Shown one piece after another: positions 3,517 to 31,083 of a DNA stretch of 40,278 nt. The notes beneath the pieces were generated by a model that did not search any database, was not told the origin of the DNA, and was given only the letters and a program-made list of their open reading frames with translations. Each line of letters starts with the position of its first letter. Positions within the stretch are counted from its first letter, which is position 1. A program made the translations under genes and the position numbers. Where the stretch lies: positions 1-40,278 of the forward strand of contig JALGYY010000005.1 in NCBI GenBank assembly GCA_025782575.1, written 5' to 3'. The stretch is from a bacterium (GTDB taxonomy: Bacteria > Orphanbacterota > Orphanbacteria > Orphanbacterales > Orphanbacteraceae).

Positions 3517-3709
3517 GCGTATCTGCCGGACCAAAATCCTCGGCGCCCGGAAGCTTACCCGTCAGGTCGGCAGGACTATGAATGAGAGTAGGGAGGTCCT
3601 GCGGGCAGATTCTAAGTTCCCCGCCTTGGTACTCTAATTTCACGAGGGGAATCTCGTTCTCACCCTTTTTGCAGACGAAGCACTCTTTTTTGACAGACGA
3701 TTCACTCAT
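3509..3709 (-). CDS. Small CxxC (zinc-ribbon-like) protein
   Basis: 66 residues from the ATG at 3709, which has AGGAGAG five nt upstream; an upstream in-frame ATG at 3739 lacks this. The N-terminal half carries ECFVCKKGENEIPLVKLEY and then LRICPQDLPTLIH, giving Cys-x2-Cys plus a third Cys about 20 residues on and a nearby His. This is a plausible small metal-binding knuckle, and the usual fourth ligand could be His. The rest is short and polar. Function is unknown. Translation is coupled by overlap to the glycosyltransferase, so it may be an accessory factor in the same surface-glycan or lipid-sugar step, but that is inference from position only. Confidence 0.6.
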   Translation of the reverse strand: MSESSVKKECFVCKKGENEIPLVKLEYQGGELRICPQDLPTLIHSPADLTGKLPGAEDFGPADTHD

Positions 3710-3815
3710 GATGCTCTCCTGGTTGATAACCGAGTCCATTTGCCGGGGGAGGCTCCTTACTCGTTCGTCTTTTTCCTGCCGTGCGCAAGGGGTTTTTCAA
3801 TACTGGCAATCCATC

Positions 3816-3856
3816 CGCCACTGTTCGTCAAAGAATATGGGAAAACATTTTTGTCC
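3816..3856. repeat. 41-bp repeat, copy 1 (tail of the DUF4143 ATPase gene)
   Basis: This 41-bp block matches 6869-6909 at 39 of 41 positions in the same orientation. On the minus strand it encodes the last residues of the ATPase (TKMFSHIL-stop) and about 12 bp after its stop codon. The second copy lies in the arsR upstream region, where it reads TKTFSHIL-stop in the corresponding frame. Confidence 0.8.
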
Positions 3857-5074: not shown

Positions 5075-6328
<1,254 letters not shown>

Positions 6329-6374
6329 GGAAGGGCGTCGTCAGAGAGGGTGATGATGAGGACGAACGGCACTC

Positions 6375-6734
6375 TCATTTTTCGGTCCTGCAGAGCTCTT
6401 CCACAGGTATCTCAAGAATCATCGCCAAGCGCGTGGCGTCATCGACCATCCCCTTTTTCATTTCGATGGAGCTGTCAAGCCATCGAAGGGCCGCCTGTGC
6501 CCGTTTTGGGGCGTCCCGGCCGACTCGCCGGTAGTAGGCCCAGCGCCCTTCTTTGCGGAAATCCACGAGGTAGGCGTGGCGAAGCACGGCCATATGTTTG
6601 GAAACCGTGGAGGCGGCCAGACCGACGAGTTCGACAAGTTGGCAGACGCAGAGTTCCCGTCCCTTGAGTGCAATCAAGATGCGGACACGGGTGGAGTCTG
6701 ATAGTGCCTTGGCGACGTCGACGAACTCGCGCAC
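6375..6734 (-). CDS. arsR: ArsR-family arsenic-responsive repressor
   Basis: 119-residue winged-helix repressor. The GTG at 6734 is chosen because AAGGAGAT lies just upstream and because the predicted transcript begins only about 30 nt before it; a longer frame to 6755 or 6980 would run into the promoter. Residues near 30 read GRELCVCQLVELV, the ELCVC metal site of arsenic-type ArsR proteins, where the Cys thiolates bind As(III)/Sb(III) and release DNA. The recognition helix follows (AASTVSKHMAVLRHAYLV) and then the wing (DFRKEGRWAYYRRV). The product should repress its own promoter and acr3, with relief by arsenite. Confidence 0.92.
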   Translation of the reverse strand: MREFVDVAKALSDSTRVRILIALKGRELCVCQLVELVGLAASTVSKHMAVLRHAYLVDFRKEGRWAYYRRVGRDAPKRAQAALRWLDSSIEMKKGMVDDATRLAMILEIPVEELCRTEK

Positions 6735-6770
6735 GGAATCTCCTTGTGTGGTCATTTCGCCACAGAACGA

Positions 6771-6799
6771 ATTATAGTGAGCTTCTGAGCTGTTGTCAA
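6771..6799 (-). promoter_or_regulatory. Consensus sigma70 promoter of arsR-acr3
   Basis: TTGACA at 6799-6794 and TATAAT at 6776-6771 on the minus strand, with a 17-bp spacer: a perfect match to the sigma70 consensus. The transcript would start near 6764, about 30 nt before the arsR GTG. I could not identify a clear ArsR operator dyad within it. Confidence 0.85.
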
Positions 6800-6868
6800 A
6801 GCCGAACAATGGGGCCGCGCCCTTAAGGCCGCCAGGAGAGGAGAAGCACCATCGACACCTGTCGCCGG

Positions 6869-6909
6869 CGCCACTGTTCGTCAAAGAATATGGGAAAACG
6901 TTTTGGTCC
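6869..6909. repeat. 41-bp repeat, copy 2
   Basis: Matches 3816-3856 at 39 of 41 bases. On the minus strand it reads TKTFSHIL-stop, like the end of the ATPase gene, but the codons before it do not resemble that protein. It lies 70 bp upstream of the arsR promoter and probably marks the scar of a lost or moved ATPase gene. Confidence 0.75.
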
Positions 6910-7096
6910 GTAGTGCCATCGGGATGGATGAGTCGATCGTGTCGGATGATCGGGTCATCTCTCTTGCGGAGTCGGGTCAATGCGTGGAGGGTGCGGTCTT
7001 GCTACTTGGGCGCTTATTGGTGAGGAGGTCGTATCTTAATTGCGTTGATATTTGATGTGCGAGGCAGAAATAAGCTGGTGGGAATTTGGGCTGCCC
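6910..7096. other. Intergenic, nothing recognised
   Basis: Together with the repeat and the promoter this completes the roughly 360-bp gap between arsR and the YeeE-type genes. I find no gene or strong terminator in it. Confidence 0.4.
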
Positions 7097-8876: not shown

Positions 8877-9746
8877 CTAAGGAACGAAGTCCACTTCCCT
8901 TTCAGCAGAACCTGCATCCACGATGATGGGCAGTCCATCCTTGCCGATGGGCACGAAGTAGTATCTGGTCGAGCTACCATCAAAAGCCTTGTATTGCAGA
9001 TAGCCCTTTGTGAGCGTTGCGGTAATCGCACCCTGAGCAGTAGCCTGAGCCTGACCCTTAATCACGATTGCCTGAGCCTCCCCCTCAGCCTGGATGCGGA
9101 TAGCGTCGCCCATGCCCTGGGCTCGTATCCGATCAATCTCAGCATCTTGTTCGGCGATCTTGATTTCGTACACTTTTTGTTCCGCCCGTTGCTCCATCAT
9201 GAGCTTTTCCGAGATTGCTCGCGTAACATCCCTATCGAATTCAATATGGGTGATCGCTACCTGATCGATTTCGACCGGCATTTCCGCAAGCCTGCTTATT
9301 AGGCCTTCCCTTATTTTGTTCTCAATGGCCGGGCTCTCACGAGCCAGGTCATTGTGGTTGAATTGAGAGAATGCGCTTCGTACAAGAGTTAGAAACACAG
9401 GGCGTATTATCTCGTTAAAATAATCCTGGCCGATTTGCGTGGCAAGCCTGTGCAATTCTTCAACTTTGGGGCGGTATGTTACAGAGACGCTTGTAGGAAC
9501 ATGGAGATCGTCAGCCGATAGGATTTCCACGGTCTCATCCTTGGTTTGCCAAGTCACGTCATACATAACAGTACTGTTCCAGGGCCACTGGAAGTAGAAT
9601 CCCTCCGGGCGAGCTTTCTCTTCAAGGGCGGGTTTGCGCATTACAATCTTTTTGAGACCCATTTGCCCGGGCTGGACCGATGTGCCGCAGCCGATGATCA
9701 ATGGGATCAAAAGGAACAATGCTACGATGTGAACTAGTTGTCGCAT
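8877..9746 (-). CDS. SPFH/prohibitin-like lipoprotein
   Basis: 289 residues. The N-terminus has a lipobox (LIPLIIGCG, Cys about residue 20), so the mature protein is lipid-anchored rather than held by a transmembrane helix as most SPFH proteins are. Residues 30-180 form the SPFH/Band 7 domain (PEGFYFQWPWNSTVMYDVTW, strand pairs, VEIDQVAITHIEFD). A long Ala/Glu/Gln-rich coiled coil follows (EQKVYEIKIAEQDAEIDRI, then AEGEAQAIVIKGQAQATAQG), typical of prohibitin-type ring assembly. Such proteins scaffold membrane microdomains and control proteases. The ATG overlaps the end of the response-regulator gene by 13 bases, so the two are translated together. Confidence 0.85.
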   Translation of the reverse strand: MRQLVHIVALFLLIPLIIGCGTSVQPGQMGLKKIVMRKPALEEKARPEGFYFQWPWNSTVMYDVTWQTKDETVEILSADDLHVPTSVSVTYRPKVEELHRLATQIGQDYFNEIIRPVFLTLVRSAFSQFNHNDLARESPAIENKIREGLISRLAEMPVEIDQVAITHIEFDRDVTRAISEKLMMEQRAEQKVYEIKIAEQDAEIDRIRAQGMGDAIRIQAEGEAQAIVIKGQAQATAQGAITATLTKGYLQYKAFDGSSTRYYFVPIGKDGLPIIVDAGSAEREVDFVP

Positions 9747-10180
9747 GACTCTTCCCCTTTCTGGGTGGTGATACGACCTGTCTCGTCGCGCTGCGAGACT
9801 GGTAATTGAGGCAATTTTTCTTTCAGAGCGAGTGTTGTAGAAATCTTTGCTTTCAGCTCTTCCCGATCACATGGCTTATCGAGCCGGCTGACTACACCAG
9901 GCTTCGTGTCGTTTAGGGCTTGATCATTATTCCTGGATGCGCGGGTTACGACGCATTGGATTCTGAGCCCGAGTCCAATGACCCGTCCCAGCAACGCCAT
10001 CTCGTCCATACACGACATCTGAGAATCAGTAGTGATCAGTTTCGGTTTTCTGCAGGATATATGCGCCAGCGCCCCTTCTTCATCCCGGGCATGAACCTCG
10101 AACAGACTTTCCAGTTGCAGAAGAAATGTAAAGATTTCTCTCACTCGGGGATCATCAGAAACCAACAAGATGTACCCCAT
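9734..10180 (-). CDS. Single-domain response regulator
   Basis: 148 residues, a lone receiver domain with a short polar tail and no output domain. The acidic pocket (D9, D10), phospho-acceptor D52 (in KLITTDSQM), T79 and K102 (RLDKP) are all present, so phosphorylation is expected. The start is clear, with GGAGGTGAG just before the ATG. It is the first gene of a two-gene unit with the SPFH lipoprotein and faces the HAMP-(p)ppGpp synthetase gene across a 325-bp divergent region. Without an output domain it must act by protein contact, perhaps on a kinase or on the neighbouring synthetase; that is speculation. Confidence 0.85.
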   Translation of the reverse strand: MGYILLVSDDPRVREIFTFLLQLESLFEVHARDEEGALAHISCRKPKLITTDSQMSCMDEMALLGRVIGLGLRIQCVVTRASRNNDQALNDTKPGVVSRLDKPCDREELKAKISTTLALKEKLPQLPVSQRDETGRITTQKGEESCDN

Positions 10181-10297: not shown

Positions 10298-10440
10298 CCA
10301 ATGGAACCGGACTTTTCCTCAGAAACACCAGCAATGATGCTTAAGCGCAATTTATGTGCCAGGGAATAACTGAGGTAAGAGCGCCTGCTATCAAGACTGG
10401 GCGGGAATTCCCAACCTCAACCACGGGAGTGACATTCAGA

Positions 10441-10456
10441 TGGCATGAATGTTGCG
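10441..10456 (+). promoter_or_regulatory. Sigma54 promoter of the HAMP-(p)ppGpp synthetase gene
   Basis: TGGCATGAATGTTGCG: GG at 10442-10443 and GC at 10454-10455, separated by the obligatory 10 bp, matching the -24/-12 consensus TGGCAY-N5-TTGC. Transcription would start near 10467, about 40 nt before the ATG at 10506. Confidence 0.75.
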
Positions 10457-10505: not shown

Positions 10506-12059
10506 ATGCCTTTCAAGCCTAAGCTGTTCCCGGGACTCTCCCTTGAGTGGCGACTCGGGATCATAACGTCTCTTGTTGTCATCTTTGTCATGGGGTCCGT
10601 AACCTCGGTCCAGCAAATGCACGAGCTGGACCAACAGCGGATCGCTCGCGAGCTGTTACTGCGAGAGTCGCTCGCCCCTCTTGCCGCTACGATTAATAAA
10701 GCAACGAAACTGGAAGAGATACTCGCTGGGATGATCACCTTTCATGAAGCATATCTTCGGGAGGGTTATGTTCGCCACGAGATCGATCTATGGAACAATT
10801 CCGGTCAGCTGATCTTTACAACACGCGGCCAATCAAATGATGTTAGTGGAATTGTCCCGCCGGGGGATGATCTCTTGAGTGCCCGTTTCCCGGTATCATC
10901 CCATCTTCTCACCGGCGAACGGGGCGTGCTGGCCGTCTATGAGGACGCTTCTGAGTACAAATCCGCCACTTCCAGGCAATGGGCGTCCTGGCTGGTCCAT
11001 GTGCTTGTTACAGCCCTTTCGATAGTAATATGTCTTCTTATTGCTGTTCGCCTTCTTGTTCTTCGCCCCCTGTACAAGCTGATTGAGTCAACCCACCTTG
11101 TCGGTTCCGGATATCGGAAAGCCGTTGAGGTGCCGGACGGCGCTTGGGAGATCCGCTGGTTGGCCAGACGCTTCCGAAGGATGAATATGCGCCTTGAGCA
11201 GACGGTGCGGGATCTTCTAGCAGCTCAGCGCCGTGCGAAACTGCCAATTGGGCCACGAAACATACGTGCGGAAAGCACCCAGGGGGATCACGGCAACCAA
11301 GGTTCGTCTCCAAACACCGGTTCCGAAATACCTGGTGATTCTGAGGTATTGGAGGGGACGCTGCGGCGGCTCAGAAGACTTCAACCGGATGCTCCGAACG
11401 CATTGAAAGCGGCGAAGCGCGCGCTCCGATCGGATGCGGTTGCGGCTGAACGTATCGGGAGTTTTGACCTCAAGAATGCAATCGAGGATGCGGCATTCAG
11501 CATTATCGCCGGTAAGGAGTACCACGAATTAAGAAGGGATCTAGATGCTTTCGCTAGATCCAGACGCGAGTGGGTCGACAGCATCGAAACTGAGATTCTG
11601 AAGATGCTCAAAGATCGGGGAGTCCGTGTCCATTCCCTGGAACACCGCGTGAAGCATGCCGCGGGGGTCTGGAGCAAGATGAAGCGGAAGGGTCTCAGTC
11701 TGGAAAGGGTACATGACCTCTTCGGATTCCGAATCGTTGTTGGCGGGGAGGGCGAGTGCTATCTTGCGCTCGGGGCCGTCCATGATGCTTTTGTGCCAAT
11801 TGTCGGGAGATTCAAGGACTATATCGCGAGACCGAAAATAAACGGATACCGTAGTCTCCACACAAGCGTTCGGGAGAGGGACAACCAGGTTTTTGAAGTG
11901 CAGATTCGTTCGATTTCCATGCAAGATGAATCCGAGAGGGGGAATGCGTCGCATTGGAAATACAAAAAGGAAAACGTCTGTCCCCCCGATGGACGCCACC
12001 GTCTTGTCCCGCGGCTCATAGGGAGCATTTTCAAGGATCCTTCGAGACCTCCGAGCTGA
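10506..12059 (+). CDS. Membrane HAMP sensor fused to a RelA/SpoT-type (p)ppGpp synthetase domain
   Basis: 517 residues. TM1 (about 18-36) and TM2 (160-184) flank a 120-residue periplasmic domain. A HAMP segment (about 186-235, starting RPLYKLIESTHLVGSG) is followed by a linker and helices, then a RelA/SpoT synthetase domain at about 360-490. Synthetase residues are kept: R381 and K383 (EHRVKHAAGVWSKMKRK), D404 (DLFGFRIVV), Y448 and H452 (KINGYRSLHTS), E464 (FEVQIRS) and H483 (HWKYK). It should make (p)ppGpp from ATP and GDP/GTP at the inner membrane. There is no HD hydrolase, TGS or ACT domain. The periplasmic domain probably senses an envelope signal. GGGAG precedes the ATG, and a sigma54 promoter lies upstream. 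The fusion is unusual among alarmone synthetases known to me. Confidence 0.85.
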   Translation: MPFKPKLFPGLSLEWRLGIITSLVVIFVMGSVTSVQQMHELDQQRIARELLLRESLAPLAATINKATKLEEILAGMITFHEAYLREGYVRHEIDLWNNSGQLIFTTRGQSNDVSGIVPPGDDLLSARFPVSSHLLTGERGVLAVYEDASEYKSATSRQWASWLVHVLVTALSIVICLLIAVRLLVLRPLYKLIESTHLVGSGYRKAVEVPDGAWEIRWLARRFRRMNMRLEQTVRDLLAAQRRAKLPIGPRNIRAESTQGDHGNQGSSPNTGSEIPGDSEVLEGTLRRLRRLQPDAPNALKAAKRALRSDAVAAERIGSFDLKNAIEDAAFSIIAGKEYHELRRDLDAFARSRREWVDSIETEILKMLKDRGVRVHSLEHRVKHAAGVWSKMKRKGLSLERVHDLFGFRIVVGGEGECYLALGAVHDAFVPIVGRFKDYIARPKINGYRSLHTSVRERDNQVFEVQIRSISMQDESERGNASHWKYKKENVCPPDGRHRLVPRLIGSIFKDPSRPPS

Positions 12060-17471: not shown

Positions 17472-18854
17472 CTAGTCGGTACGAGAATCCTCCATGTCCA
17501 ACGAATATTTCTGGATTCGGTAGATCAACACATGCCGGGGAATACTGAGATACTGGGCCGTCTTGGACTTGTTTCCGTCGAACATGGCAAGTGCTTTCTT
17601 TATTATTTCGCACTCAAGTTCCCACAGAGGAAGCGAGTGCTCGGGCAGCTCCCGCACGATCTTTGCCAAGTATACATCTTCCGCCTGCAATGGTGCAGAT
17701 TGGATTTCGGGGGGGGCGTCCTTTAGGGTAAGAGCATTGCCATGCCGAAGAAGGATCATACGGTGACATAGATTGGCAAGCTCACGAACATTTCCTCTCC
17801 AGGGAAGGGACATCAGTTTCTTTATCAGAGGCAATTCCGTTCGGATTTTCTCCCCGTCGCCGTATACTTTTACGAAATGTTCCCACAGGGCAGGAATGTC
17901 GTCCCGCCGGCTCCGAAGGGGAGGGATGTGGATTGGAATCACCTTCAGCCGATAATAGAGGTCTTCTCGGAATCTACCTTCTTGAATGGCTTCCTGCAGA
18001 TTAGCATTAGTGGCGGCGACGAAGCGGATATCAACGTTGACGGGCCGTTCGGTCCCCAGCACGTCAACTTCACCGGTTTCCAAAACACGGAGCAATTTCG
18101 TCTGAAGGTCTGGCGGCAATTCGCCGATTTCGTCGAGGAAAAGTGTTCCTCCTGAGGCGCTAATAAACCTGCCTCGCTTGTCACGAATCGCCCCGGTAAA
18201 CGCACCCTTCGCAAAACCAAATAGTTCCGATTCGATCAAATCCCGGGGAATCGCTCCGCAATTGACTACAACGAGGCGCTTTTCCCGTCGCCGGGACATC
18301 TCGTGGAGGCCTCGAGCTACGAGTTCCTTACCCGTCCCGCTCTCTCCGGTGATCAGAACGGTCGCATCCGTAGGACCGATCTGCCTAATTGTGTCGACCA
18401 GCTCCTCCATCGGCTTAGAGGCATAGACCAGCGGAATCTTTCCTTCCCAATCATGGAGCCTTTGCTTGAGGCACCTGTTTTCCTCGCGGATTTTTTCCTG
18501 TTCGAGGGCGTTATGTACGACGATGCGAAGTTCATCCCTGTTGTACGGCTTTGTGAGGTAGTTGAACGCTCCGAGCTTCATCGCTTCCACTGCCCTCTCG
18601 ATCGTTCCAAACGCAGTCAGTACGATAATGGGGATATCGATCCCCTCTTCCCGGATTGCACGGAGCAGGGAGATCCCGTCCATGCGAGGCATCTTTAGAT
18701 CTGTGATCACTAAATTCACGCGCGAACCACGAATGACCTCAAGGGCCTCTTCCCCGTTCGTCGCCTCTAGGACCTTGTATCCTTCAGCTTGCAAAGCGAA
18801 GGAAATAACCCCGCGCAGACTGTTATCGTCATCGACGAGAAGTACGGTATTCAT
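17472..18854 (-). CDS. NtrC-family sigma54-dependent response regulator
   Basis: 460 residues. The receiver domain (1-115) has D8-D10, phospho-site D52, T80 and K102. The AAA+ domain (about 140-380) has Walker A GESGTGKE (170-177), the GAFTGA sigma54 contact loop (217-222), Walker B LFLDEIGEL (about 239-247) and the PPLRSRRDDIPAL segment. A Fis-type helix-turn-helix closes the protein (NKSKTAQYLSIPRHVLIYRI). It should bind upstream sites as a dimer and, once phosphorylated, open sigma54 promoters. A tandem pair of AGAATATTCT palindromes lies 80-110 bp before its start; the same motif precedes the efflux operon and the Met-rich gene. Its sensor kinase is not in the window. A ruined paralog lies at 32703-33297. 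Confidence 0.93.
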   Translation of the reverse strand: MNTVLLVDDDNSLRGVISFALQAEGYKVLEATNGEEALEVIRGSRVNLVITDLKMPRMDGISLLRAIREEGIDIPIIVLTAFGTIERAVEAMKLGAFNYLTKPYNRDELRIVVHNALEQEKIREENRCLKQRLHDWEGKIPLVYASKPMEELVDTIRQIGPTDATVLITGESGTGKELVARGLHEMSRRREKRLVVVNCGAIPRDLIESELFGFAKGAFTGAIRDKRGRFISASGGTLFLDEIGELPPDLQTKLLRVLETGEVDVLGTERPVNVDIRFVAATNANLQEAIQEGRFREDLYYRLKVIPIHIPPLRSRRDDIPALWEHFVKVYGDGEKIRTELPLIKKLMSLPWRGNVRELANLCHRMILLRHGNALTLKDAPPEIQSAPLQAEDVYLAKIVRELPEHSLPLWELECEIIKKALAMFDGNKSKTAQYLSIPRHVLIYRIQKYSLDMEDSRTD

Positions 18855-20099: not shown

Positions 20100-20654
20100 C
20101 TAATGACCCATAGCCGAATGATCGGCCTCATTCGTACTCGTTGAGTGTGTGCTTGTCATGGTCCCGATGGAGCCCATTACATTTCGTCCCGCCTCGATCA
20201 TCGCGTTCATGTGCGAAATCAGCTCATTCATCGGGTCGGACATATCATTCATGTCGTGCTCGGGAACCTGGTCAATCCAGCCTTGCAGATGCTCAAGCAT
20301 CTGCTCCATGTGTGGCTCCATGCTCTGCATCTCTTCCGAAATCTCCATCATGGCAGGCATGGAGTGATCTCCATCCATCATCATTTCTTCAGACCAGGAA
20401 GAGGCGATCTGCTCATGAAAACCGTGCATTTCCTCCACCATCTGAGTCATGTGGTCCATCATCATGGACATCTGCTCCATCATTTCTCCGGAATGCATCT
20501 GACCCATATGGTCCATCATGTTACTAGTGCCATGGCCGTCATTATCCATGTGACCGCCGTCGTCTCCACCGTGCTGAGCCCAAACGGGAGCCGCCAGTAT
20601 GACTATGGCGAGAAGTGAGCGGACACCACAACCAATCGGCCTATTCCAATTCAT
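20100..20654 (-). CDS. Met/His-rich periplasmic metal-binding protein
   Basis: 184 residues with a signal peptide (ending APVWA-QHGG) and a mature part packed with Met, His, Asp and Glu: HMDNDGHG, SNMMDHMGQMHSGEMMEQM, EHMEQMLEHLQG-like helices, and DHSAMGH at the C-terminus. Such composition binds Cu(I), Ag(I) or Cu(II) in the periplasm, as in PcoE/SilE or CopK-like proteins, but the sequence is not clearly any of these. GAGGAGG lies before the ATG. It has its own sigma54 promoter (20721-20736) and tandem operator (20791-20820), so it is induced separately from the main efflux operon, perhaps as a high-copy buffer. Confidence 0.75.
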   Translation of the reverse strand: MNWNRPIGCGVRSLLAIVILAAPVWAQHGGDDGGHMDNDGHGTSNMMDHMGQMHSGEMMEQMSMMMDHMTQMVEEMHGFHEQIASSWSEEMMMDGDHSMPAMMEISEEMQSMEPHMEQMLEHLQGWIDQVPEHDMNDMSDPMNELISHMNAMIEAGRNVMGSIGTMTSTHSTSTNEADHSAMGH

Positions 20655-20720: not shown

Positions 20721-20736
20721 CGCAAAATCTATGCCA
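20721..20736 (-). promoter_or_regulatory. Sigma54 promoter of the Met/His-rich gene
   Basis: On the minus strand TGGCATAGATTTTGCG, with GG at 20735-20734 and GC at 20723-20722 and exactly 10 bp between. Predicted start near 20711, about 57 nt before the ATG. The operator pair lies 80-110 bp upstream of this start. Confidence 0.75.
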
Positions 20737-21029: not shown

Positions 21030-23156
21030 TTAGATTTTGGCGCGGCGTAATCGTAGCGAATTCCCAATCACGGAAACCGAGCTGAAGCTCATCGCAGCCG
21101 CTGCGAGGATCGGACTCAAAAGAACTCCGAACAAGGGATACAGAACACCGGCGGCGACAGGCACGCCGAGGGCATTATAAATAAAGGCGAAAAAAAGATT
21201 CTGTTTGATGTTGGCCATTGTCTGTTGACTCAGACGCCGCGCACGGACGATGCCTCGAAGGTCGCCCTTTACAAGCGTAACACCGGCGCTCTCGATGGCA
21301 ACATCGGTTCCGGTGCCCATGGCGATCCCGACGTCGGCCAGCGCCAGAGCGGGCGCATCGTTGATACCGTCGCCTGCCATGGCTACGATGTGGCCCTCTC
21401 GTTTCATCTCCTTGATGATATCAGCCTTGTGCTCGGGGAGAACCCCGGCGACGACGGAATCGATCGCGAGGCGCCTGGCGACGGCATCCGCGGTAGTCTG
21501 ATTGTCTCCGGTCAACATGACGATCCGGAGGTGCTGGCCACGGAGAGCCTGAATTGCCTCAGCCGTGGTGGATTTGATCGGGTCGGCCACACCCAGAATC
21601 CCGGCGAGACTGCCGTCGACCGCAACAAACATGACAGTCTGAGCGTCAGAACGACGGGCCTCTGCGGAGTCGGCAAGCGGTGTCGTATCGATACCCATGT
21701 TGTCCATGAGGCGGATGTTCCCGACAGCCACCGCCCGGCCTTCTACACGGCCACGAACGCCCATTCCGGTGACCGATTCAAAGTCTTCGACCGGTGCCGG
21801 AAAGACATCGCGTTCACTCGCGCCTCGAAGTATCGCGTCGGCAAGCGGATGCTCACTGGTACGCTCAAGACTTGATGCGAGCCGCAGGAGTTCGCTTTCA
21901 GAAGTCGGAGAGACCGGTGTGAGAGTGACCAGTGCCGGCTTCCCCTCGGTAAGTGTGCCGGTCTTGTCGACCACAAGAGTGTCAACTTTGCGAAGCGTCT
22001 CGATCGATTCGGCATTCTTGAAAAGAACTCCCAGTGACGCCGCCTTGCCGGTAGCGACCATGATCGACATGGGAGTGGCAAGGCCGAGAGCACACGGGCA
22101 GGCAATGATGAGAACAGCGACGGCGTTGATGAGGGCATGTGCCATTCGGGGCTCTGGTCCTATGAGGCTCCAGGCTACAAAAGTCGTCGCCGCGATCAGG
22201 ATGACTATGGGGACGAAGTAACCCGCAACGACATCCGCCAGTTTCTGGATCGGCGCGCGGCTTCGCTGAGCTTCAGAGACCATCTTGACGATTCGTGCCA
22301 GAAGCGTTTCCGAGCCGATTCGCTCGGCCCGCATAAGAAGCGTGCCAGTAGTATTAATCGTGGCCCCGATGAGCGGGTCACCACGATTTTTCACCACGGG
22401 GAGGGGCTCTCCGCTGACCATGGACTCGTCCACAGAGCTTCCCCCCTCAATCACAACACCATCTACCGGAATTTTCTCTCCGGGCCGGACACGGAGCTGA
22501 TCGCCGACCTGGACGGCTTCGAGCGGGATGTCATGCTCGGATCCATCTTCTTCGACACGCCGGGCTGATTTGGCCGCGAGGTCCAGGAGGGCCTTGATCG
22601 CCATACCGGTCTGGGACCTGGCGCGGAGCTCCAGAATCTGACCGAGGAGAATAAGCGTGACAATGACGCCGGCGGCTTCGAAATAGACCGCCACCTGCCC
22701 GGAGGGGCCGCGGAAAGATGCCGGAAAGAGACCTGGGAAGATGGTGGCGATGAGACTGTAAAGGTAAGCGACGCCGACACCGAGGCCGATCAACGTGAAC
22801 ATGTTAAGGCTGCGATTTTTCACGGATTGGACGGCGCGTTTGTAGAACGGCCACGCGGACCAGAGGCAGATGGGCGTAGCGAGTGCGAGCTCAAGAATGG
22901 CCCGCCACCGGTGTGAGAGTAAGCGGGAAACAGGTTCGCCGGGTAGGAGATCGCCCATAGCGATAAACATAAGGGGGACGGTGAGAATGGCGGCGAACCA
23001 GAAGCGCTTTGACATGTCGCGAAGTTCGGTATCGTCATCCGGTTCGGCGCTGACGTCACTACGCTCGAGCGCCATCCCGCAGACAGGACAGTTTCCCGGC
23101 CCGCCCTGAACGACTTCAGGGTGCATCGGGCAGGTGTAAGACGCGCCGGCCATCAT
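21030..23156 (-). CDS. copA: Copper-translocating P1B-type ATPase
   Basis: 708 residues from ATG 23156, which overlaps the cusA stop by four bases (ATGA); the frame to 23201 lies inside cusA. A short metal-binding segment opens the protein (YTCPMHPEV...[11 protein letters not shown]) in place of the usual HMA domain. Eight TM segments are expected. Catalytic marks are VSGEPLPV (A-domain), the ion-binding [13 protein letters not shown] in TM6, DKTGTLTEG with the phosphorylated Asp, [19 protein letters not shown] and [10 protein letters not shown]. The last TM has [16 protein letters not shown], the Met-Ser motif of Cu(I) (1B-1) pumps. It exports Cu(I) or Ag(I) to the periplasm, where CusCBA can take over. 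Last gene of the efflux operon. Confidence 0.93.
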
Positions 23157-26100
23157 TCCTTCACCGATGTTCCCGGCATGTGACCGAGGGCGAGTTTCCA
23201 TTCCGCTGCCGCGGCATAGAGAATCGGAACCGTGAAAGTAGTCAGTACGACGAATGCCATTCCACCGAACGAAGGGATGGCCATCGGTACCATGATGTCC
23301 GATCCCCGTCCGGTTGAGGTAAGCACCGGAATAAGTGCCAGTATCGTCGTTGCTACCGTCATGAGACAGGGACGAATCCTTCGACGCCCCGCCTCGAGAG
23401 TGGCCGCGCGAATGGCCTTCACGGTCCTGGGAGAGTTCTTTTGAAAAGTCTGGTCCAGGTAGGTTCCCATAATCACGCCGTCGTCAGTGGCAATCCCGAA
23501 CAAGGCCAGAAAGCCGACCCAGACGGCGACACTCAGGTTGAGAGGATGAACCTGGAAGAGTTGCTGCATGGAAGTGCCGAACACACTGAAGTCGAGAAAC
23601 CATGGCTGTCCATAAAGCCAGATCATGACAAAGCCCCCTCCCCAGGCGACGGCAATGCCGGAGAAAATGAGCGCCGTGGTAATAACGGAGTTAAACTGGA
23701 AATATAGGATGAGAAAGACAACGGAGAGCGCGAGCGGAAGAATCACGGACAGCTTCTTCTGGGCGCGAATCTGATTCTCGTAACTTCCCGTAAACGTGTA
23801 GTTCACTCCTGCCGGTACAACGAGGTCGCCGGAAGCGATCCTCTGATCCAGATACGCACCAGCTTGTTCGACGACGTCCACTTCGGCGAAGCCGGGCTTC
23901 TTGTCGAAGATAATATACCCGACAAGAAAAGTATCTTCGCTCTTGATGACCTGGGGGCCACGGACATAACGGATCTCCGCAAGCTGCGCCAGGGGAATCT
24001 GGGTTCCATCCGGTGCAGCGACGAGGATACGCATCAACGAATCCATATTGTCTCGAAGCTCTCTCAGGTAGCGAACCCGGACAGGGTAGCGCTCGCGTCC
24101 TTCCACCGTTCGGGTAATGGGCTTGCCTCCCACGGCGACTTCGATAACGTTCTGGACGGTCCCGAGATGAATGCCGTAGCGTCCGATCGCCTCTCGGTCG
24201 ATGTGGATCTCGAGATACGGTTTTCCGACGATTCGATCCGCAATGACCGCACTGGCTTCAATGGACGGAATGCTCTTGAGCTCGCGTTCGAGTGCGAGCC
24301 CGAAAACTTCGATGGTTTCGAGATCCGGTCCTTTGACTTTGATGCCCATGGGTGCCCGCATGCCGCTTTGAAGCATCACGATACGCGCCGCGATGGGCTG
24401 GAGCCTTGGGGCGCTCGTAGTGCCCGGTATTTTGGCGGCGTCAATGATGGCATCCCAGATATCATCGGTGCCCTGAACACCGGCCCACCTGTCACGTCCG
24501 TCATTGAGGTCCGGGCTTAGTTCCGGTCGCCAGAGGCGGAACGGTTTTCCGCGGTTGTCGGGGACGAGGGACCCGGTTTCGTCCCGCTCGAAAGTTCCGC
24601 GAACCATGTAAGGTTCGCCGTCGGGAGCAGGGATCGGATCGCCGTTCACGTCTCGAAAGAGATCATCCTCCCTGGAACTGTACTTGAAGCGAAGTCGATG
24701 TCCGGACTCATCGTCCAAATACTCTGACTTGTAATTGATCACAGTCTCGATCATCGAGATCGGGGCTGGGTCGAGGGGCGACTCTACACGGCCGATTTTA
24801 CCGACGGCAGTTTCTACTTCAGGAATAGCCTGAATGGCCATGTCCTGTTTGCTTAGGACATCATATGCCTCGCCAATCGACGCGTGAGGCATCGTTGTCG
24901 GCATGAACAGGTACGACCCTTCGTCGAGGGGTGGCATGAATTCCCGGCCGAGTCCTGGAAACGCATGGGCCACAGCGGAGACCGGACTGAACATTCGGAC
25001 CGGCTGAGGCACCCACCCGAATACCGTGTCGAAGCCCAGCCAGACCATTGCACCTATAACAGCGATCAGGGCGGGCACAGAAAGCGCGAGAAGTTTATGT
25101 GCGAGGCCCCACGCCAGGATTCGGCCGTAGGCCCGCTGGAACAGGAGAAGGGCAGTCAGAAGGCCTCCGATGAGGCCGGTCACAAAGATCGTATTTCTGA
25201 CGATTCCCTTATCAGGCCCAAGGGGAAGCCAGTGCGAGGTCAGGTAGAGAAGAACCGAAATGATGGCCACCCAGTTCACATACAACCCCACCTTGAGCCG
25301 TTGGCGTTCCGGGACACGTTTCTCGAGGAGGTGGTAGCCTCCAATGAGGGCAATGATACCGCCTGCCCACCAGCTCACGCCAAGCGCGGTGACGAGGCCG
25401 AGAAGCACGAGAGCGGAATTCAGAAAGATGCGGAGGAGACGGCCTCGAATGCGGCTCGTGAAAAGCATCTGAGCCAATGGCGGAATTACGAGAACCGCAA
25501 CGAGGACAGCGGCGACAATCGCGAATGTCTTCGTAAATGCAAGAGGGCGGAATAGCTTCCCTTCGGGGCCGGTCATGGTAAAGACAGGAAGGAAGCTGAC
25601 TACCGTGGTGGCAACGGCTGTAAGAACGGCGCCACCGACTTCGCTGGCGGCTCGGAAGATGACGTTACTCGGAGGTTCGTCCGGTTCAGCCTCGTCAAGG
25701 TGCTTGAGGATGTTCTCTATTATGACGATTCCCATATCGACCATAGTGCCGATCGCGATCGCGATGCCGGATAGTGCGACAATATTGGCGTCGACGTGGA
25801 AGACACGCATGGCAATAAAGCACATGAGGACAGCAAGGGGGAGAAGCCCTGCGATAAGAATAGAACTTCTGAGATGCATTACCATAACGAGAACCACGAT
25901 AATAGTGACGAGAATTTCTTCGATGAGGGCGGTGTTCAGCGTTCCCAGGGTTTCGTGGATGAGCTCGGTTCGGTCGTAGAAGGGCACGACGGTGACCTGG
26001 CTGACAGTGCCATCGTCCAGAATCTTGGTTGGAAGCCCGGGGCCGATTTCAGCGATCTTCTCCTGCACCGCCTTGATTGTACTCAGTGGGTTTTCGCCGT

Positions 26101-27043
26101 AACGGACAACAACTACCCCACCTACGGCCTCAGCTCCCGCCTTGTCGAGCACGCCGCGGCGAAGTGCGGGTCCAAGAGTCACGCTAGCTACGTTTCGCAC
26201 GAACACGGGCGTGTTCTCGTGAGCTTTGATGACGGAGCTTTCGATATCTTCCAGGCTTTTCACAAAGCCGATGCCGCGGATAATGTACTCCACATTGTTC
26301 AGCTCGATTGTGCGGGCGCCGACGTCGAGGTTGGACATCCGAACGGCTGAGAATACTTCTTCAAGCGTTACGTTGTAGGCGCGCATGGCGTCGGGATCGA
26401 CATCGACCTGGTACTCTTGAACAAAGCCCCCGATCGATGCGACTTCACTTACCCCTTTGGCGGACATCAAGGCGTAGCGAACGTACCAATCCTGAATACT
26501 TCGGAGTTCATGCAAGTCCCAGCCACCGGTAGGGTTCCCCTCAGGGTCTCGTCCTTCCAGTGTGTACCAGAAGATCTGACCGAGGGCGGTAGCGTCCGGG
26601 CCGAGCGCCGGCCGGACACCAGGAGGAAGTGTGTTTGCCGGTAGACTGTTGAGTTTCTCGAGAATACGGGAGCGCGACCAGTAGAACTCGATGTCTTCTT
26701 CAAAGATCACATAGATGCTCGAGAAACCGAACATCGAGAAGCTGCGGATGGTCTTGATTCCCGGGATGCCGAGGAGGGACACTGTCATAGGGTAACTGAT
26801 CTGGTCTTCTACATCCTGGGGTGAGCGCCCTTCCCAGCGAGTGAAGACGATCTGCTGATTCTCGCCGATATCAGGGATGGCATCAACAGGGACCGGATCG
26901 CGAGGAGCACCTCCCAGTTCCCAGTCGAAAGGGGCGACCATAAGTCCCCAGCCGATCGTCATAAAAACGAGGAGGATTACAATGAGCTTCCGCTGCAAGC
27001 AGAATTGAATCAGATAGTCGAGAATGTTTGCAGGCTTGTCCAT
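23153..27043 (-). CDS. cusA: CusA-type heavy-metal RND efflux pump
   Basis: 1296 residues, about 250 more than E. coli CusA. AGGAG precedes the ATG by eight nt. The core matches Cus[54 protein letters not shown] with the proton-relay Asp, [15 protein letters not shown] and [19 protein letters not shown]. Of the three Met ligands I recall for E. coli CusA, those in YLFMPTT and RIVMLQSG are present, but the third is Ile here (RYGIHLGT). Extra sequence lies in the loop after TM6 (about 540-650, with up to four additional hydrophobic segments), in the periplasmic domain (about 800-870) and before TM11. Long CusA forms occur elsewhere. It pumps Cu(I)/Ag(I) through CusB and CusC out of the cell. 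Confidence 0.93.
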
Positions 27044-27054
27044 GGTCGCGGCTC

Positions 27055-28926
27055 CTAGTGGTTGGTGTGGTCCGCGCCGGTACTCTCAGCACGAGGACCC
27101 GCTATGAGCGTCTCTGTTTGAGAGCCGCATTTGAGCATTTGTGATCCGTAGTATGGGTTCTCGGTTCCGACTGTGGACTGGAGCCAGTCGGCGCCCGCTC
27201 CACCCATGGCCATGGGACAGTGGTAGACTAAAATGGGGATTCGACCCGATGCGCGAAAGGTACGAATGGCGTCGATCATTCGCGATGAGAGGTCGGAGAA
27301 CAGGTGTCGCGCGTTCTTGATGTCGGCGGCTGCAGCGACGGCTTCGGACGCCGAAGTTATCTCTGTCTGTACCTTCCCCCATGGGGCATGGCCTGGGCCG
27401 GGCAAGAGGCCGTGGTCGACAGCGAGAAGAGCCGGCCGAATGTCCGCCGCCGCCGCTTTCGCCTGGTCGAGATCATCATGGCTCAGTGCGGTGCTGACCT
27501 TGAGATAAAGTGCGATAACGTCGTCCAGCTGGATGCGGAATTCCTCTGGAATTCCGGCGATCTCCTTTACCTGCTGTTGAGCTTCAGCTGTGGCCTCCGA
27601 GGAACTGGAACCATGGTTGTGGCCCGGAACGGGCGCGCCTCCCTCGGGGCTCATCATGCTCTTCTTGGCGAGGATCTGCAGGGCGCTGTCGATCTTGAAG
27701 CTGCCATTGGTAACAACGCGCTCGCCTTCCTGAAGGCCTTCACGGACGACGAAGAACTCTCCTGCCCGCGGTCCGAGCACGATTTCGCGGCCTTGAAACA
27801 GCCCGGGCTGGTCGGGATCCTCGACGTAGACAACAGCTCGTGTACCTGTTACGAGGGGTGCGGAAGCGGGAATAACGAGGGGTAGCTTCTCTCCCTCACC
27901 GGTGATCGTGGCGTGGACTACGGCTCGGGCGAACATGCCCGGCATGAGACGGCCGGCCGGATTCTTAACATTGACGCGGACCTTGATGCTCCGCGATTGC
28001 TCGTTCAGCATGGGGTCGATGAAGGCAACCGTTCCCTTGAATTTCTCGCCACGATATGTATCCGTCTCGAACTCGACTGCCAGTCCGAGCTTCACCCACG
28101 CAAGGTCTGATTCATAGACATCGAGCTTGAGCCAGAGTACGGAAAGGTCGGCGATGGAATAGACATGGGTGCCGGTCTGAACATAAGTTCCTTCAACTGC
28201 ATCTTTGTGGAGTACGACGCCGCTCATCGGTGCCACGATCGTGATGTGGTCCGAGGGGGCACCTCTTCTCTCGATTTCTTCAATCTGCCCGGCGGTTAGA
28301 CCCCAGAGCCGAAGGCGTTCGCGCACGGCATGAATGGTTCGTGCGGCAGAGCGACGGGTGCTCTCGAGGGTGCTCTTTGCAAGTTCGTCCGATGCCCTGA
28401 TCGCCTGGAGGAGCTCCTCCTGGGCGGAGTAGAGCTCCGGGCTGTAGAGGTCGAAAAGCTTCTCGCCAAAGCGGACATGAACACCGGTGTAGTCGACATG
28501 GAGCCGGTCGATCCGTCCGGGAACCCAGGCGGAAATCTCCCGAACACGTGTCTCGTCCGCTTCGAGCTTGCCGACCATGCGCAGGGTCATTTCTGCTGAT
28601 TGCCGCGTTACAGGCGTGGTCTGGATTTCGGCGATCTTCTGGGCCGCGGGGGAGAGTCTGAGCGAGCGTGGGCCGAGGTCATCACCACTTGACGATTTGA
28701 GGGGAATCAGATCCATGCCGCAGAGCGGACACTGTCCGGGTTTCGGCAATTGAATCTGCGGGTGCATGGAACACGTCCAGACCGTGGCCTCAGTCTCTCC
28801 TGCGGCGTGCCCGGAGTGTTCGGATTCAGGCGCCCCTCCGCGGAGGGAAAGCCCGATCACAAAGGTAAATAGGAGCGCCGCGGCGAGGGCGAGTCTCCGG
28901 AACCATGGATTGCGTGTGATTTGCAT
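27055..28926 (-). CDS. cusB: CusB-type RND periplasmic adaptor with metal-binding ends
   Basis: 623 residues from ATG 28926, preceded by GGGGGAGG; the frame to 29007 overlaps cusC. An N-terminal anchor (LALAAALLFTFVIGLSL) is followed by a heavy-metal-binding segment (WTCSMHPQIQLPKPGQCPLCGMDL) like that of CopA here. The adaptor core includes ISAWVPGRIDRLHVDYTG, the helical hairpin, TIVAPMSGVVLHKDAVEGTY and a membrane-proximal domain. The C-terminus adds a DUF3347-like helical domain and a Cys/Met segment (VYHCPMAMGGAGADWLQ...NPYYGSQMLKCG), frequent in Bacteroidota-type CusB. It binds metal in the periplasm and hands it to CusA. Confidence 0.92.
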   Translation of the reverse strand: MQITRNPWFRRLALAAALLFTFVIGLSLRGGAPESEHSGHAAGETEATVWTCSMHPQIQLPKPGQCPLCGMDLIPLKSSSGDDLGPRSLRLSPAAQKIAEIQTTPVTRQSAEMTLRMVGKLEADETRVREISAWVPGRIDRLHVDYTGVHVRFGEKLFDLYSPELYSAQEELLQAIRASDELAKSTLESTRRSAARTIHAVRERLRLWGLTAGQIEEIERRGAPSDHITIVAPMSGVVLHKDAVEGTYVQTGTHVYSIADLSVLWLKLDVYESDLAWVKLGLAVEFETDTYRGEKFKGTVAFIDPMLNEQSRSIKVRVNVKNPAGRLMPGMFARAVVHATITGEGEKLPLVIPASAPLVTGTRAVVYVEDPDQPGLFQGREIVLGPRAGEFFVVREGLQEGERVVTNGSFKIDSALQILAKKSMMSPEGGAPVPGHNHGSSSSEATAEAQQQVKEIAGIPEEFRIQLDDVIALYLKVSTALSHDDLDQAKAAAADIRPALLAVDHGLLPGPGHAPWGKVQTEITSASEAVAAAADIKNARHLFSDLSSRMIDAIRTFRASGRIPILVYHCPMAMGGAGADWLQSTVGTENPYYGSQMLKCGSQTETLIAGPRAESTGADHTNH

Positions 28927-28930
28927 TATC

Positions 28931-30304
28931 TTATTCCTCCCCCTTGAGGTGGTCCCCGACAAGCTGTTCCAGTCGGGCTCGTCGGGTCGCGCGATCTGCC
29001 AAAGCACGTTCGTATGCCAGCTCGAATTCGAGCAGTGTTCTCTGGGTATCGATCAGGTCGAGAAAATCGGCTTTGGCCGTCGTAAAGGCGTCAGTGGTTA
29101 CCTCAAGTGACTGCCGTGCTTTGGGAATAAGTGTGTAGGCATATAGATCAACCCGTCGCTCGGCATCGCGCAGTTCGAAGTGGATGCGTTCCAGATCGGC
29201 CAGGAGTCGATTCCGGAGCTGAGAGAGTTCATTCTGTGTTGCTCGAAGGCGAGCCTCGGCCTGGGCCTTCTCGGCGCGGTAGCTTCCAAACCAGAGAGGG
29301 ACATTGATTGTCGCCCTGGCTATGACTCCGTCCTTCCCGCTGTCGAGAACATCGGGGAAGCGAGCTTCATCCGTAGCGATGTAATCGGCGCCGATCGTCA
29401 GATCAGGAATGGGACTCCGTCCCGCGAGCTTGACGGCCGCTTCTTCTCTTTTCTCTGTAAATGAAAGGCCTGCAAGCCTGGGATTCTCTAATAGAAGGAG
29501 ATCGCGGAGTTCTGTTTGAGAGAGGTGGAGTGGCCTGGTGTCGACCGAGTCCGGCCATGCGATCGGTGCGCCTTCAGGGCGGTTGAGATCGGCATTAAGC
29601 GCCGCGAGGAGGGAACTACGCTGATCCTGGAGTGTTCGCAGACGGTCTTCGAGGCGTCCCAATTCCACCTGGGCGCGGATTACTGCTGAGTGAGGCGCCT
29701 TTCCGGCAATGTATTGAGTGAGCGCCACACTTTCGAGATTGGTCAGAAGGAGCACGTTCTCGTGTGTAATGTCAGTGGCACGGCTCAGGTAGTAGTAATC
29801 GTCCCAGAGCTGCGTAATCCGGTAACGCAGATCCCGCCGGGCGGCTTCAAAATGTGCCCCCATGGTATTCGCAGATTGAACGGCCACCTCGCCGCGGAGG
29901 CCTAGTTTCCCAAATAGAGGGATCGTCTGCGAGACACCGAATTTCTGTCGCTGTGGACCGACACGGGTCTCCACAGACTCGAGGAAATAGGCGTAGGATA
30001 GCTTGGGGTCGGGGAGGGATTTGGACTGAGGCACCTGTTCGAGAGCTGCGGTCCAGCGATCGAATGCGGCTCGTAGCCCGGGGTTTCCCGACTCAGCGAG
30101 CATGAGAAGAGTGTCCAGAGTGGCGGAATCGCCCAACTCCGGGTTCTGCGCCTCGCTTTTCAGAATGGGCTCGTAGTGTTGACTGTAGACGTCGTCCCAA
30201 CGTGTCTGAGCCGCTTTCTCGGTGCCGGCAGCACAACCGGAAAGCCACAGAATGGCCCCCGCGCCAAGCAACGCCAGGGCGTACCGTGCAGTCCTTGCTA
30301 CCAT
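28931..30304 (-). CDS. cusC: CusC-type outer-membrane efflux channel (TolC family lipoprotein)
   Basis: 457 residues from ATG 30304, which overlaps the end of the preceding gene by seven bases and has GGAG eight nt upstream; the longer frame to 30427 lies inside that gene. A lipobox (ILWLSGCAAG, Cys about residue 24) anchors it to the outer membrane. Two OEP repeats of long alpha-helices follow, with beta segments of the type PDPKLSYAYFLESVET and IPDLTIGADYIATDE and helices such as AEARLRATQNELSQLRNRL. It forms the exit duct of the CusCBA tripartite pump; the cusB start follows its stop by four bases. Confidence 0.9.
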   Translation of the reverse strand: MVARTARYALALLGAGAILWLSGCAAGTEKAAQTRWDDVYSQHYEPILKSEAQNPELGDSATLDTLLMLAESGNPGLRAAFDRWTAALEQVPQSKSLPDPKLSYAYFLESVETRVGPQRQKFGVSQTIPLFGKLGLRGEVAVQSANTMGAHFEAARRDLRYRITQLWDDYYYLSRATDITHENVLLLTNLESVALTQYIAGKAPHSAVIRAQVELGRLEDRLRTLQDQRSSLLAALNADLNRPEGAPIAWPDSVDTRPLHLSQTELRDLLLLENPRLAGLSFTEKREEAAVKLAGRSPIPDLTIGADYIATDEARFPDVLDSGKDGVIARATINVPLWFGSYRAEKAQAEARLRATQNELSQLRNRLLADLERIHFELRDAERRVDLYAYTLIPKARQSLEVTTDAFTTAKADFLDLIDTQRTLLEFELAYERALADRATRRARLEQLVGDHLKGEE

Positions 30305-31083
30305 TTGAAGTGCTCCGTCCCATGAATGAGGGTGGCCCCGAAGTGCCCGGTCAGTCCGGCGAGGAGGGCGGCCCCGACCAATGCTGCCATAAAAACTTTG
30401 CGTCGAGCAGGCGTTGGGGTACGCCAATACCTTTCGGACGCAATGAGCGTCAGGAGTGCGACGACAGCGGTCCCCGTGCCGAGCCAGCGATGCCGGAACA
30501 GTATATCGGTGAGCTCACCAACATAGCGAGCATTTACTGCCGTCGCCCACCCGAGCGCCGCTGATAGAACAGCCGTCGGCGCACCAATCAGAATGAAGAC
30601 TCGTGCCGCTTCCAGGGACCGCGGGTATTGCCAGACTGCCGCAAGGATCTGCGCCAGAAGCGCCGACATAAGGAGCGCGATAGGGAAGTGGATCACCACC
30701 GGGTGGAACTTCCCTATGAATCGGATGAGCCGCGCCCATGTTTCTGGCGTCTTTTCCCCGCCTGAGTGAGCGTGCCCTTCGTCGTCCGGTGTCTCTGAAT
30801 CGGTTGGATCCGAGTACGCGATGTTGGCGGCATACTTGGCAGGATTCTCAAGAAACTGCTTGCGACATCTCATGCAGCAAAAATACACCCGTTTGCCATC
30901 GTAATCGGTAAAGATTTCCGGATCGACCGGCTCGTCGATCGTAACCGGGCATAGGGCATTCGTAATGCCCTCCGATTCCGTCTCGCGCGCGGCACTATCG
31001 TGCCCCTCGCCACTGTGGGCAAATGCTGCCGGCACAATCGCGAGGAAGACCAGCGCGCAAATCAGTAGGCTGCGGAACATCAT
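30298..31083 (-). CDS. TRASH/YHS metal-binding domain fused to a DUF2231-like membrane domain
   Basis: 261 residues. A signal peptide (ending PAAFA-HSGE) is followed by a TRASH/YHS-type domain at about 42-85: NALCPVTIDEPVDPEIFTDY, KRVYFCCMRCRKQFLENP, with Cys ligands in C-x~24-CC-x2-C order. A His-rich linker (DDEGHAHSGGE) leads to four TM segments of DUF2231 type, starting KFHPVVIHFPIALLMSALL and including HRWLGTGTAVVALL. The His residues in the membrane part could bind haem or metal. Probably a periplasmic metal sensor, reductase partner or chaperone at the inner membrane; the function is not established. A paralog lies at 38375-39130. GGAGGG precedes the ATG. Confidence 0.8.
   Translation of the reverse strand: MMFRSLLICALVFLAIVPAAFAHSGEGHDSAARETESEGITNALCPVTIDEPVDPEIFTDYDGKRVYFCCMRCRKQFLENPAKYAANIAYSDPTDSETPDDEGHAHSGGEKTPETWARLIRFIGKFHPVVIHFPIALLMSALLAQILAAVWQYPRSLEAARVFILIGAPTAVLSAALGWATAVNARYVGELTDILFRHRWLGTGTAVVALLTLIASERYWRTPTPARRKVFMAALVGAALLAGLTGHFGATLIHGTEHFKW

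Follow-up and report, generated by a model that had tools for sequence, protein, structure and literature searches.

The window, that is, the whole stretch of 40,278 nucleotides that was analysed, carries a gene for a 517-aa protein in which a membrane-bound sensory part is joined to a RelA/SpoT synthetase. The protein and its relatives are referred to here as HAMP-RSH. A regulator gene diverges from it, and a set of metal efflux genes lies further along the same stretch. The genes and features are as follows (window positions, strand, description and basis):

9734..10180, -, single-domain response regulator, divergent from HAMP-RSH; Pfam, with an orthologue in the matching position of the nearest relative
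10346..10361, -, sigma-54-like site TGGCACATAAATTGCG in divergent orientation, 5' of the response regulator gene
10441..10456, +, sigma-54-like -24/-12 promoter TGGCATGAATGTTGCG / TGGCATGAATGTTGC, 66 nt 5' of the HAMP-RSH start codon
10506..12059, +, HAMP-RSH gene (517 aa, ATG start): TM1, periplasmic domain, TM2, HAMP, linker, RelA/SpoT synthetase
10554..10610, +, TM1 (residues 17-35); hydropathy peak in 11/11 aligned members, helix 13-55 in the AF2 model
10611..10991, +, PAS-like sensor domain in the periplasm (residues 36-162), containing H80, H91 and W159/W162; AF2, Foldseek and conservation
10992..11048, +, TM2 (residues 163-181), with H165 on its periplasmic end; hydropathy
11043..11240, +, HAMP with the coiled helix that leaves it (residues ~180-245), carrying the family signature GAWE; hhalign and Tsr/NarQ matches
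11241..11360, +, variable, low-confidence linker (residues 246-285); pLDDT < 50 at 249-276 and alignment variability
11361..11639, +, helical region that in long RSHs runs from HD to SYNTH (residues 286-378); alignment with Rel/RelA structures from 286, TIGR00691
11643..11975, +, (p)ppGpp synthetase domain PF04607, with the RFKD (RXKD-type) motif and all catalytic residues
16367..17437, +, HtrA/Deg-type trypsin-PDZ protease; domain search
17472..18854, -, NtrC-type sigma-54-dependent response regulator; domain search
20100..20654, -, Met/His-rich exported protein without a Pfam family; sigma-54-like site at 20736 (-)
21030..23201, -, copper-translocating P1B ATPase; TIGR01511, HMBD domain
23153..30427, -, CusA, CusB and CusC-like heavy-metal RND efflux system; domain search

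Architecture and ancestry of the protein

The layout of two transmembrane segments around a periplasmic domain, proposed in a first-pass annotation of this DNA, is borne out by the relatives. Segments 17-35 and 163-181 are common to 11/11 aligned members, and K/R residues are richer after TM2 than in the loop, so that the topology test was met. HAMP-RSH is predicted to span the inner membrane with its sensor of about 125 aa outside and its enzyme, a predicted cytosolic synthetase, inside. The full-length AF2 model has a pLDDT of 77 and a pTM of 0.54.

The same annotation placed a HAMP domain after TM2, and here the support is divided. The Pfam search returned RelA_SpoT but not PF00672 (HAMP), which reports no member of the family. 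However, residues ~150-237 of the window protein align with the HAMP sensors BaeS, NarQ and EnvZ and with chemoreceptors (NCBIfam), and the family profile matches the HAMP domains of Tsr (1.2e-5) and NarQ (0.005) in the PDB. When the family was compared by hhalign with four Pfam-verified HAMP segments, the probability was 98% (E 3e-13), whereas column-shuffled control profiles did not exceed 0.7% against the same segments. This test is not fully independent, as the four HAMP proteins had been picked for their earlier match to the window protein. On the level of profile-profile comparison the HAMP domain is confirmed, with PF00672 still not reporting it.

RelA_SpoT (PF04607) is the sole Pfam domain of the window protein. 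It covers residues 380-490 with an E-value of 3.5e-34 and a score of 117.9 bits against a curated cut-off of 27, and it is present in 11/11 aligned members. Positions 132-319 of the TIGR00691 (spoT_relA) model correspond to residues 301-489. Since this alignment starts only at model position 132, the HD (hydrolase) part is missing from HAMP-RSH. Pfam likewise found no HD, TGS or ACT domain in any member; HD_4 was absent from every one of them, the similarity to RSHs begins after the HD part, and the window protein ends about 27 aa past SYNTH. The absence of a hydrolase noted at first pass holds.

Among the catalytic residues checked in the synthetase, conservation is nearly complete. R381, K383, K391, D404, R409, K437, D438, K444, N446, Y448, H452, E464, Q466 and R468 are invariant in 15/15 aligned members, and R435 is replaced only in the paralogue L094 (by S). 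The six catalytic residues listed by the first-pass annotation (R381, K383, D404, Y448, H452 and E464) are among the invariant ones, and no loss of a named residue appeared on alignment of the 15 members. The RFKD motif has the form seen in the bifunctional Rel proteins aligned with the window protein, and in a Foldseek search with the full AF2 model Rel catalytic domains match first. Enzyme activity itself is inferred.

A maximum-likelihood tree of residues 300-490, which took in 12 HAMP-RSHs and 65 long RSHs, splits the two sets by a branch with UFBoot 100. The members of the family have a common ancestry, and the long RSHs from their host genomes group with other long RSHs. This tree, in which HAMP-RSH stands as a separate clan, rules out that the gene arose recently from the long RSH of its host through loss of domains. 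Every host genome also has a long RSH, with at least one RelA_SpoT match in a frame that is of long-RSH length or truncated by the contig end. These long RSHs were called by frame length; the HD domain was seen in the window genome only, as an HD_4 match within the 761-aa long-RSH frame. The window genome additionally holds a stand-alone HD_4 match in a 198-aa frame (G000:C46 284920-285288, L068), a candidate small alarmone hydrolase.

A rare family in several phyla

Besides the window protein, 14 essentially full-length members and one broken copy were found, in genomes labelled Eisenbacteria, Krumholzibacteria, Gemmatimonadota, Acidobacteriota, Binatota, Delta- and Betaproteobacteria and an Escarpia endosymbiont. 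Within the window's own phylum (7 genomes), HAMP-RSH occurs in one other genome, at 58% identity. When 386 genomes, of relatives and others, were scanned, one member came up, from another phylum, with 37% identity over residues 8 to 494. The GTDB species collection, scanned with an alignment of the sensor, HAMP and linker, yielded 11 loci, two of which were records already found. The labels of these MAGs were Eisenbacteria, Deltaproteobacteria, Binatota, Escarpia endosymbiont, Acidobacteriota (two), Gemmatimonadetes (two), Krumholzibacteriia, Leptothrix and Burkholderiaceae. Three further members were recovered with the sensor profile alone from 395 sampled genomes of the phylum of one Gemmatimonadetes MAG. 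Sampling 399 genomes from the order of the Leptothrix MAG and 297 from the phylum of the Binatota MAG gave no HAMP-RSH apart from that of the starting genome.

The Burkholderiaceae copy (L066 9750-11034) is frameshifted over several frames and adjoins CopA, a two-component system and CusCBA; it is either a pseudogene or an assembly error. The Deltaproteobacterium, which has the member L057, also has a second, divergent one (L094 1459-3099, - strand) without the three periplasmic histidines described below and without the HAMP Trp. Viral contigs contained no relatives and plasmids no full-length match, and a phage or plasmid origin was ruled out on these grounds. Judged from the homologue scans across genomes, this is a genuine, rare family that is either old or mobile.

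By its synthetase, and as far as sequence comparison reaches, HAMP-RSH is a member of the RSH superfamily without the defining features of long RSHs or small alarmone synthetases. Long RSHs (Rel/RelA/SpoT, with structures of S. equisimilis, B. subtilis and M. tuberculosis Rel) have the same synthetase fold and active site, an RXKD-type motif and a helical segment before SYNTH. HAMP-RSH differs in having no HD, TGS or ACT; instead, it has two TM helices, a periplasmic domain and HAMP, and it forms a separate clan. A small alarmone synthetase is a single soluble synthetase domain. The members of that group (RelQ/RelP; YjbM/YwaC) and the toxSAS resemble HAMP-RSH in combining a synthetase with the lack of a hydrolase, but they are small and have no membrane receptor part, whereas HAMP-RSH is membrane-integral, bears a sensor and is nearer to long RSHs in sequence. 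One-component receptors with HAMP domains (diguanylate and adenylate cyclases, phosphatases, chemoreceptors) share the order TM, sensor, TM, HAMP and output; a RelA/SpoT synthetase as the output was not found reported in the open-access literature. Exported alarmone synthetases (EAS) also combine an N-terminal membrane-targeting sequence with an alarmone synthetase, but they carry signal peptides and leave the cell (PMC12691689), whereas the two TM helices and HAMP of HAMP-RSH predict a cytosolic synthetase. Plant RSH4 (CRSH) likewise couples an RSH synthetase to an extra sensory domain; it differs in its calcium-binding EF-hands, its plastid location and the lack of a membrane receptor part, and the sensors are unrelated (PMC3153485).

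The first-pass annotation knew of no described example of this architecture. No combination of HAMP with RelA/SpoT was found in the open-access literature either; subscription papers and UniProt/InterPro architectures were outside the scope of this search. The text of the 2011 RSH census does not mention transmembrane or HAMP. The family, spread over several phyla, is thus apparently undescribed, and its best reading is that of a new RSH subfamily whose enzyme activity and ligand are inferred, not shown.

Sensor domain and gene neighbourhood

Structure prediction of the periplasmic domain, put forward as a check at first pass, gave a model of two helices, four strands and a helix running into TM2 (AF2, domain alone: pLDDT 79, pTM 0.68; the input alignment had 11 sequences only). 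Its best matches in the PDB are to CusS. In Foldseek, the silver-bound CusS sensor (5ku5) takes ranks 1, 2, 3 and 5 with its four chains, with E-values of 2.6e-3 to 2.8e-2, probabilities of 0.99-1.00, TM-scores of 0.53-0.57 and 12-14% identity. LapD-type domains are also among the best matches, and CpxA and WalK come after. As no match reached 0.001, the fold match to CusS is a pointer and not proof. A profile search of the PDB gave no sequence link of the domain to CusS or other known sensors, and Pfam assigned it no family (dCache_1 appeared at 0.029 in two members only).

H80, H91 and H165 are all kept in 12/15 members, and W159 and W162 are invariant in 15; no conserved Met or Cys was found in the periplasmic domain. 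The members L060, L065 and L094 have each lost at least one of these histidines, and no copper pump gene was seen in the sequence available for them. The CusS sensor binds silver near the membrane through H42, F43 and H176 and elsewhere through S84, M133, M135 and H145 (PMC10100754). The histidine positions of HAMP-RSH do not copy H42/F43/H176, although the two were not superposed in 3D. A putative metal site, if it exists, uses a different set of residues from that of CusS. CusS is the best structural match of the periplasmic domain, though a marginal one, and is alike in having its genes beside cusCBA/copA; it differs in its kinase domain, which HAMP-RSH does not have, in the position of its metal ligands and in the absence of sequence similarity.

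In the window, HAMP-RSH lies 9-19 kb from the copper P-type ATPase and the CusA/B/C-like system, with the HtrA-type protease, the NtrC regulator and the Met-rich exported protein in between. In the nearest relative (L056), the HAMP-RSH stop codon overlaps the start of an HtrA orthologue, which is followed by CopA, all on the + strand; in L062 the HtrA orthologue is directly 5' of HAMP-RSH. CopA adjoins HAMP-RSH in L061 and L066, a Cu ATPase is about 8-9 kb away in L063, CusA is 2 kb away in L064, and CusCBA with CopA is found at 16-22 kb in the Escarpia endosymbiont. Both CopA and CusCBA are present at L066 and L059. Altogether, a P-type Cu ATPase or a CusA-type pump occurs within about 22 kb at 10/15 genomic loci. 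No copper pump was seen near L058 (43-kb contig), which keeps the three histidines, near L060 (358-kb contig, 20 kb read on each side) or in reach of L065 on its short contig. A P-type ATPase at L060 was rejected as a copper pump, being KdpB, and was left out of the count. Several loci are on short contigs (L057 with L094, L062 and L065, 7-16 kb).

Against an expectation of 0.38, 6/12 genomes have a P1B Cu ATPase within 22.5 kb of HAMP-RSH, a number not attained once in 2 million simulations; five of the six still qualify at a limit of 10 kb. The 22-kb radius was set after seeing the data, and the counts pool close and distant P1B types. None of the 15 long RSHs of the same genomes is on a contig with a P1B Cu ATPase (Fisher p 0.003). 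CopA, CusBA or both lie no more than about 16 kb from each of three Gemmatimonadota loci that were found later without reference to copper (3/3). The association with copper genes is an observation. Metal islands are mobile, so that this proximity could partly reflect shared transfer.

The metal genes of the window have some features of their own. The CusA-like RND pump (23153-27043, 1296 aa) is matched by most other CusAs in two pieces, about 50-535 and 850-1288, and from these alignments it seems to carry an insertion of ~300 aa between its halves; a relative in genome G392 matches residues 8-1244 in one piece at 68% identity. The CusB-like adaptor (27055-29007) combines an N-terminal HMBD (heavy-metal-binding) domain with a C-terminal DUF3347. 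Near the copper genes, an SBF-family (ACR3-like) transporter and an ArsR-like regulator (5075-6980) are likely an arsenic resistance pair. Downstream of HAMP-RSH at L059 (15282-18236), an ArsR-like regulator, GAPDH and then a membrane-protein ORF are reminiscent of an organoarsenical (ArsJ) operon, by analogy of gene order.

Four sigma-54-like sites with at most one mismatch occur in the window; 300 Markov shuffles had 0.56 on average and never more than 3. A third site, beside those of HAMP-RSH and its divergent regulator, is upstream of the Met-rich gene. In L056 such sites precede the regulator and the Met-rich orthologue. In L057 a perfect site lies 46 nt before a small gene that directly precedes HAMP-RSH. 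This gene (3251-3817) encodes 188 aa with a TM segment and a HAMP-like stretch, has no Pfam match and ends 4 nt before HAMP-RSH; its product is possibly a partner subunit. Sites upstream of HAMP-RSH are strong only in the window and in L057, and a sigma-54 promoter as a family-wide feature was rejected. Since the sites are weak or absent in other members, sigma-54 control is suggested in some lineages only.

Proposed function and rival explanations

The first-pass annotation had inferred an envelope signal coupled to (p)ppGpp synthesis. This remains the best reading, with the coupling still inferred; the multi-phylum family, the tie to copper/silver efflux loci and the resemblance, marginal as it is, of the periplasmic domain to the CusS fold had been missed. 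In the reading preferred here, HAMP-RSH is a one-component membrane receptor in which a Cu/Ag-linked envelope sensor has (p)ppGpp synthesis as its output. A probability of roughly 0.6 is given to it, with activity and ligand inferred. A dimeric PAS-like (CusS-type) periplasmic domain would detect a metal-linked signal; Cu(I)/Ag(I) or the damage done by them are the most likely candidates, and H80, H91 and H165, close to the membrane face, may take part. The change would travel from TM2 through HAMP to the helices that join hydrolase to synthetase in long RSHs, by which the cytosolic synthetase would be toggled between off and on, and pyrophosphorylation of GTP/GDP would be turned on. (p)ppGpp would then slow growth during the removal of metal and damaged proteins by CopA, CusCBA and HtrA, and hydrolysis would be supplied by the long RSH of the same cell. 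The signal at the first step and the pyrophosphorylation at the last are inferred, as are dimerisation and the direction of signalling.

The leading rival differs from this explanation in the signal only. The receptor would sense envelope damage in general, in the form of misfolded proteins or of redox or lipid stress, and not the metal itself, and copper genes would be its neighbours because metals cause such damage. The HtrA-type protease in the neighbourhood in three lineages, the periplasmic domains of CpxA and WalK among the fold matches and the lack of a copper pump in reach of L058, L060 and L065 would all fit. Nevertheless, the association with copper is stronger and wider than that with HtrA, the top fold match is CusS with silver, and the loss of histidines coincides with a missing copper context, so that a pure damage sensor is unlikely, although it deserves to be taken seriously. 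A membrane-anchored synthetase with another product, acting as a growth-arrest or defence module, is considerably harder to support. Toxic small alarmone synthetases make (p)ppApp or pyrophosphorylate tRNA, the conserved residues by themselves do not reveal product specificity, and residues 324-469 weakly match the PADLOC candidate PDC-S33 (3.7e-14). However, the sequence is closest to long-RSH synthetases, with RFKD and the preceding helical region kept, and the gene is absent from viral contigs and without a full-length plasmid match. The context is one of metal efflux: the neighbours recognised are regulators, a protease and metal efflux genes, and no antitoxin gene was recognised, with unnamed small ORFs not ruled out.

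Slightly less probable still is a catalytically silent synthetase with a GTP-binding or scaffold output, for example, one that hands its signal to neighbouring response regulators. The unusual neighbours (the divergent single-domain regulator and NtrC) and the severing of the RSH domain from its usual TGS/ACT regulators lend this some appeal. Yet R381, K383, K391, D404, R409, K437, N446, Y448, H452, E464 and Q466 are invariant in the 15 members, and a dead enzyme is not expected when catalytic residues are invariant across several phyla. The assembly behind the window is a draft of 49 contigs, in which a sensor fragment and a RelA fragment might have been joined by chimeric assembly or chance fusion; the same fusion, linker position and conserved sensor recur in 14 other loci from independent assemblies, and these homologues refute a chimera, leaving almost no weight on this explanation.

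(p)ppGpp is a master growth-rate signal of bacteria and, to our knowledge, its synthesis is set by cytosolic cues. Known inputs to alarmone control are ribosome, carrier-protein, small-protein, calcium and toxin-antitoxin inputs. Alarmone control by a metal receptor would, if real, be a mode separate from these, and a membrane receptor with an alarmone output would give alarmones dedicated transmembrane receptors, as c-di-GMP and cAMP have. A detached synthetase under HAMP would also be a clean system for studying how the helices adjacent to SYNTH switch it on. The copper context offers a concrete, testable ligand and ties metal resistance to growth arrest. From the neighbourhood of copper and silver pumps, metal stress in the envelope may trigger the alarm directly. 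The strict form of this idea, in which a periplasmic Cu/Ag receptor makes (p)ppGpp directly, with activity and ligand inferred, stands a little short of even odds; it would give these bacteria a stringent response without starved ribosomes.
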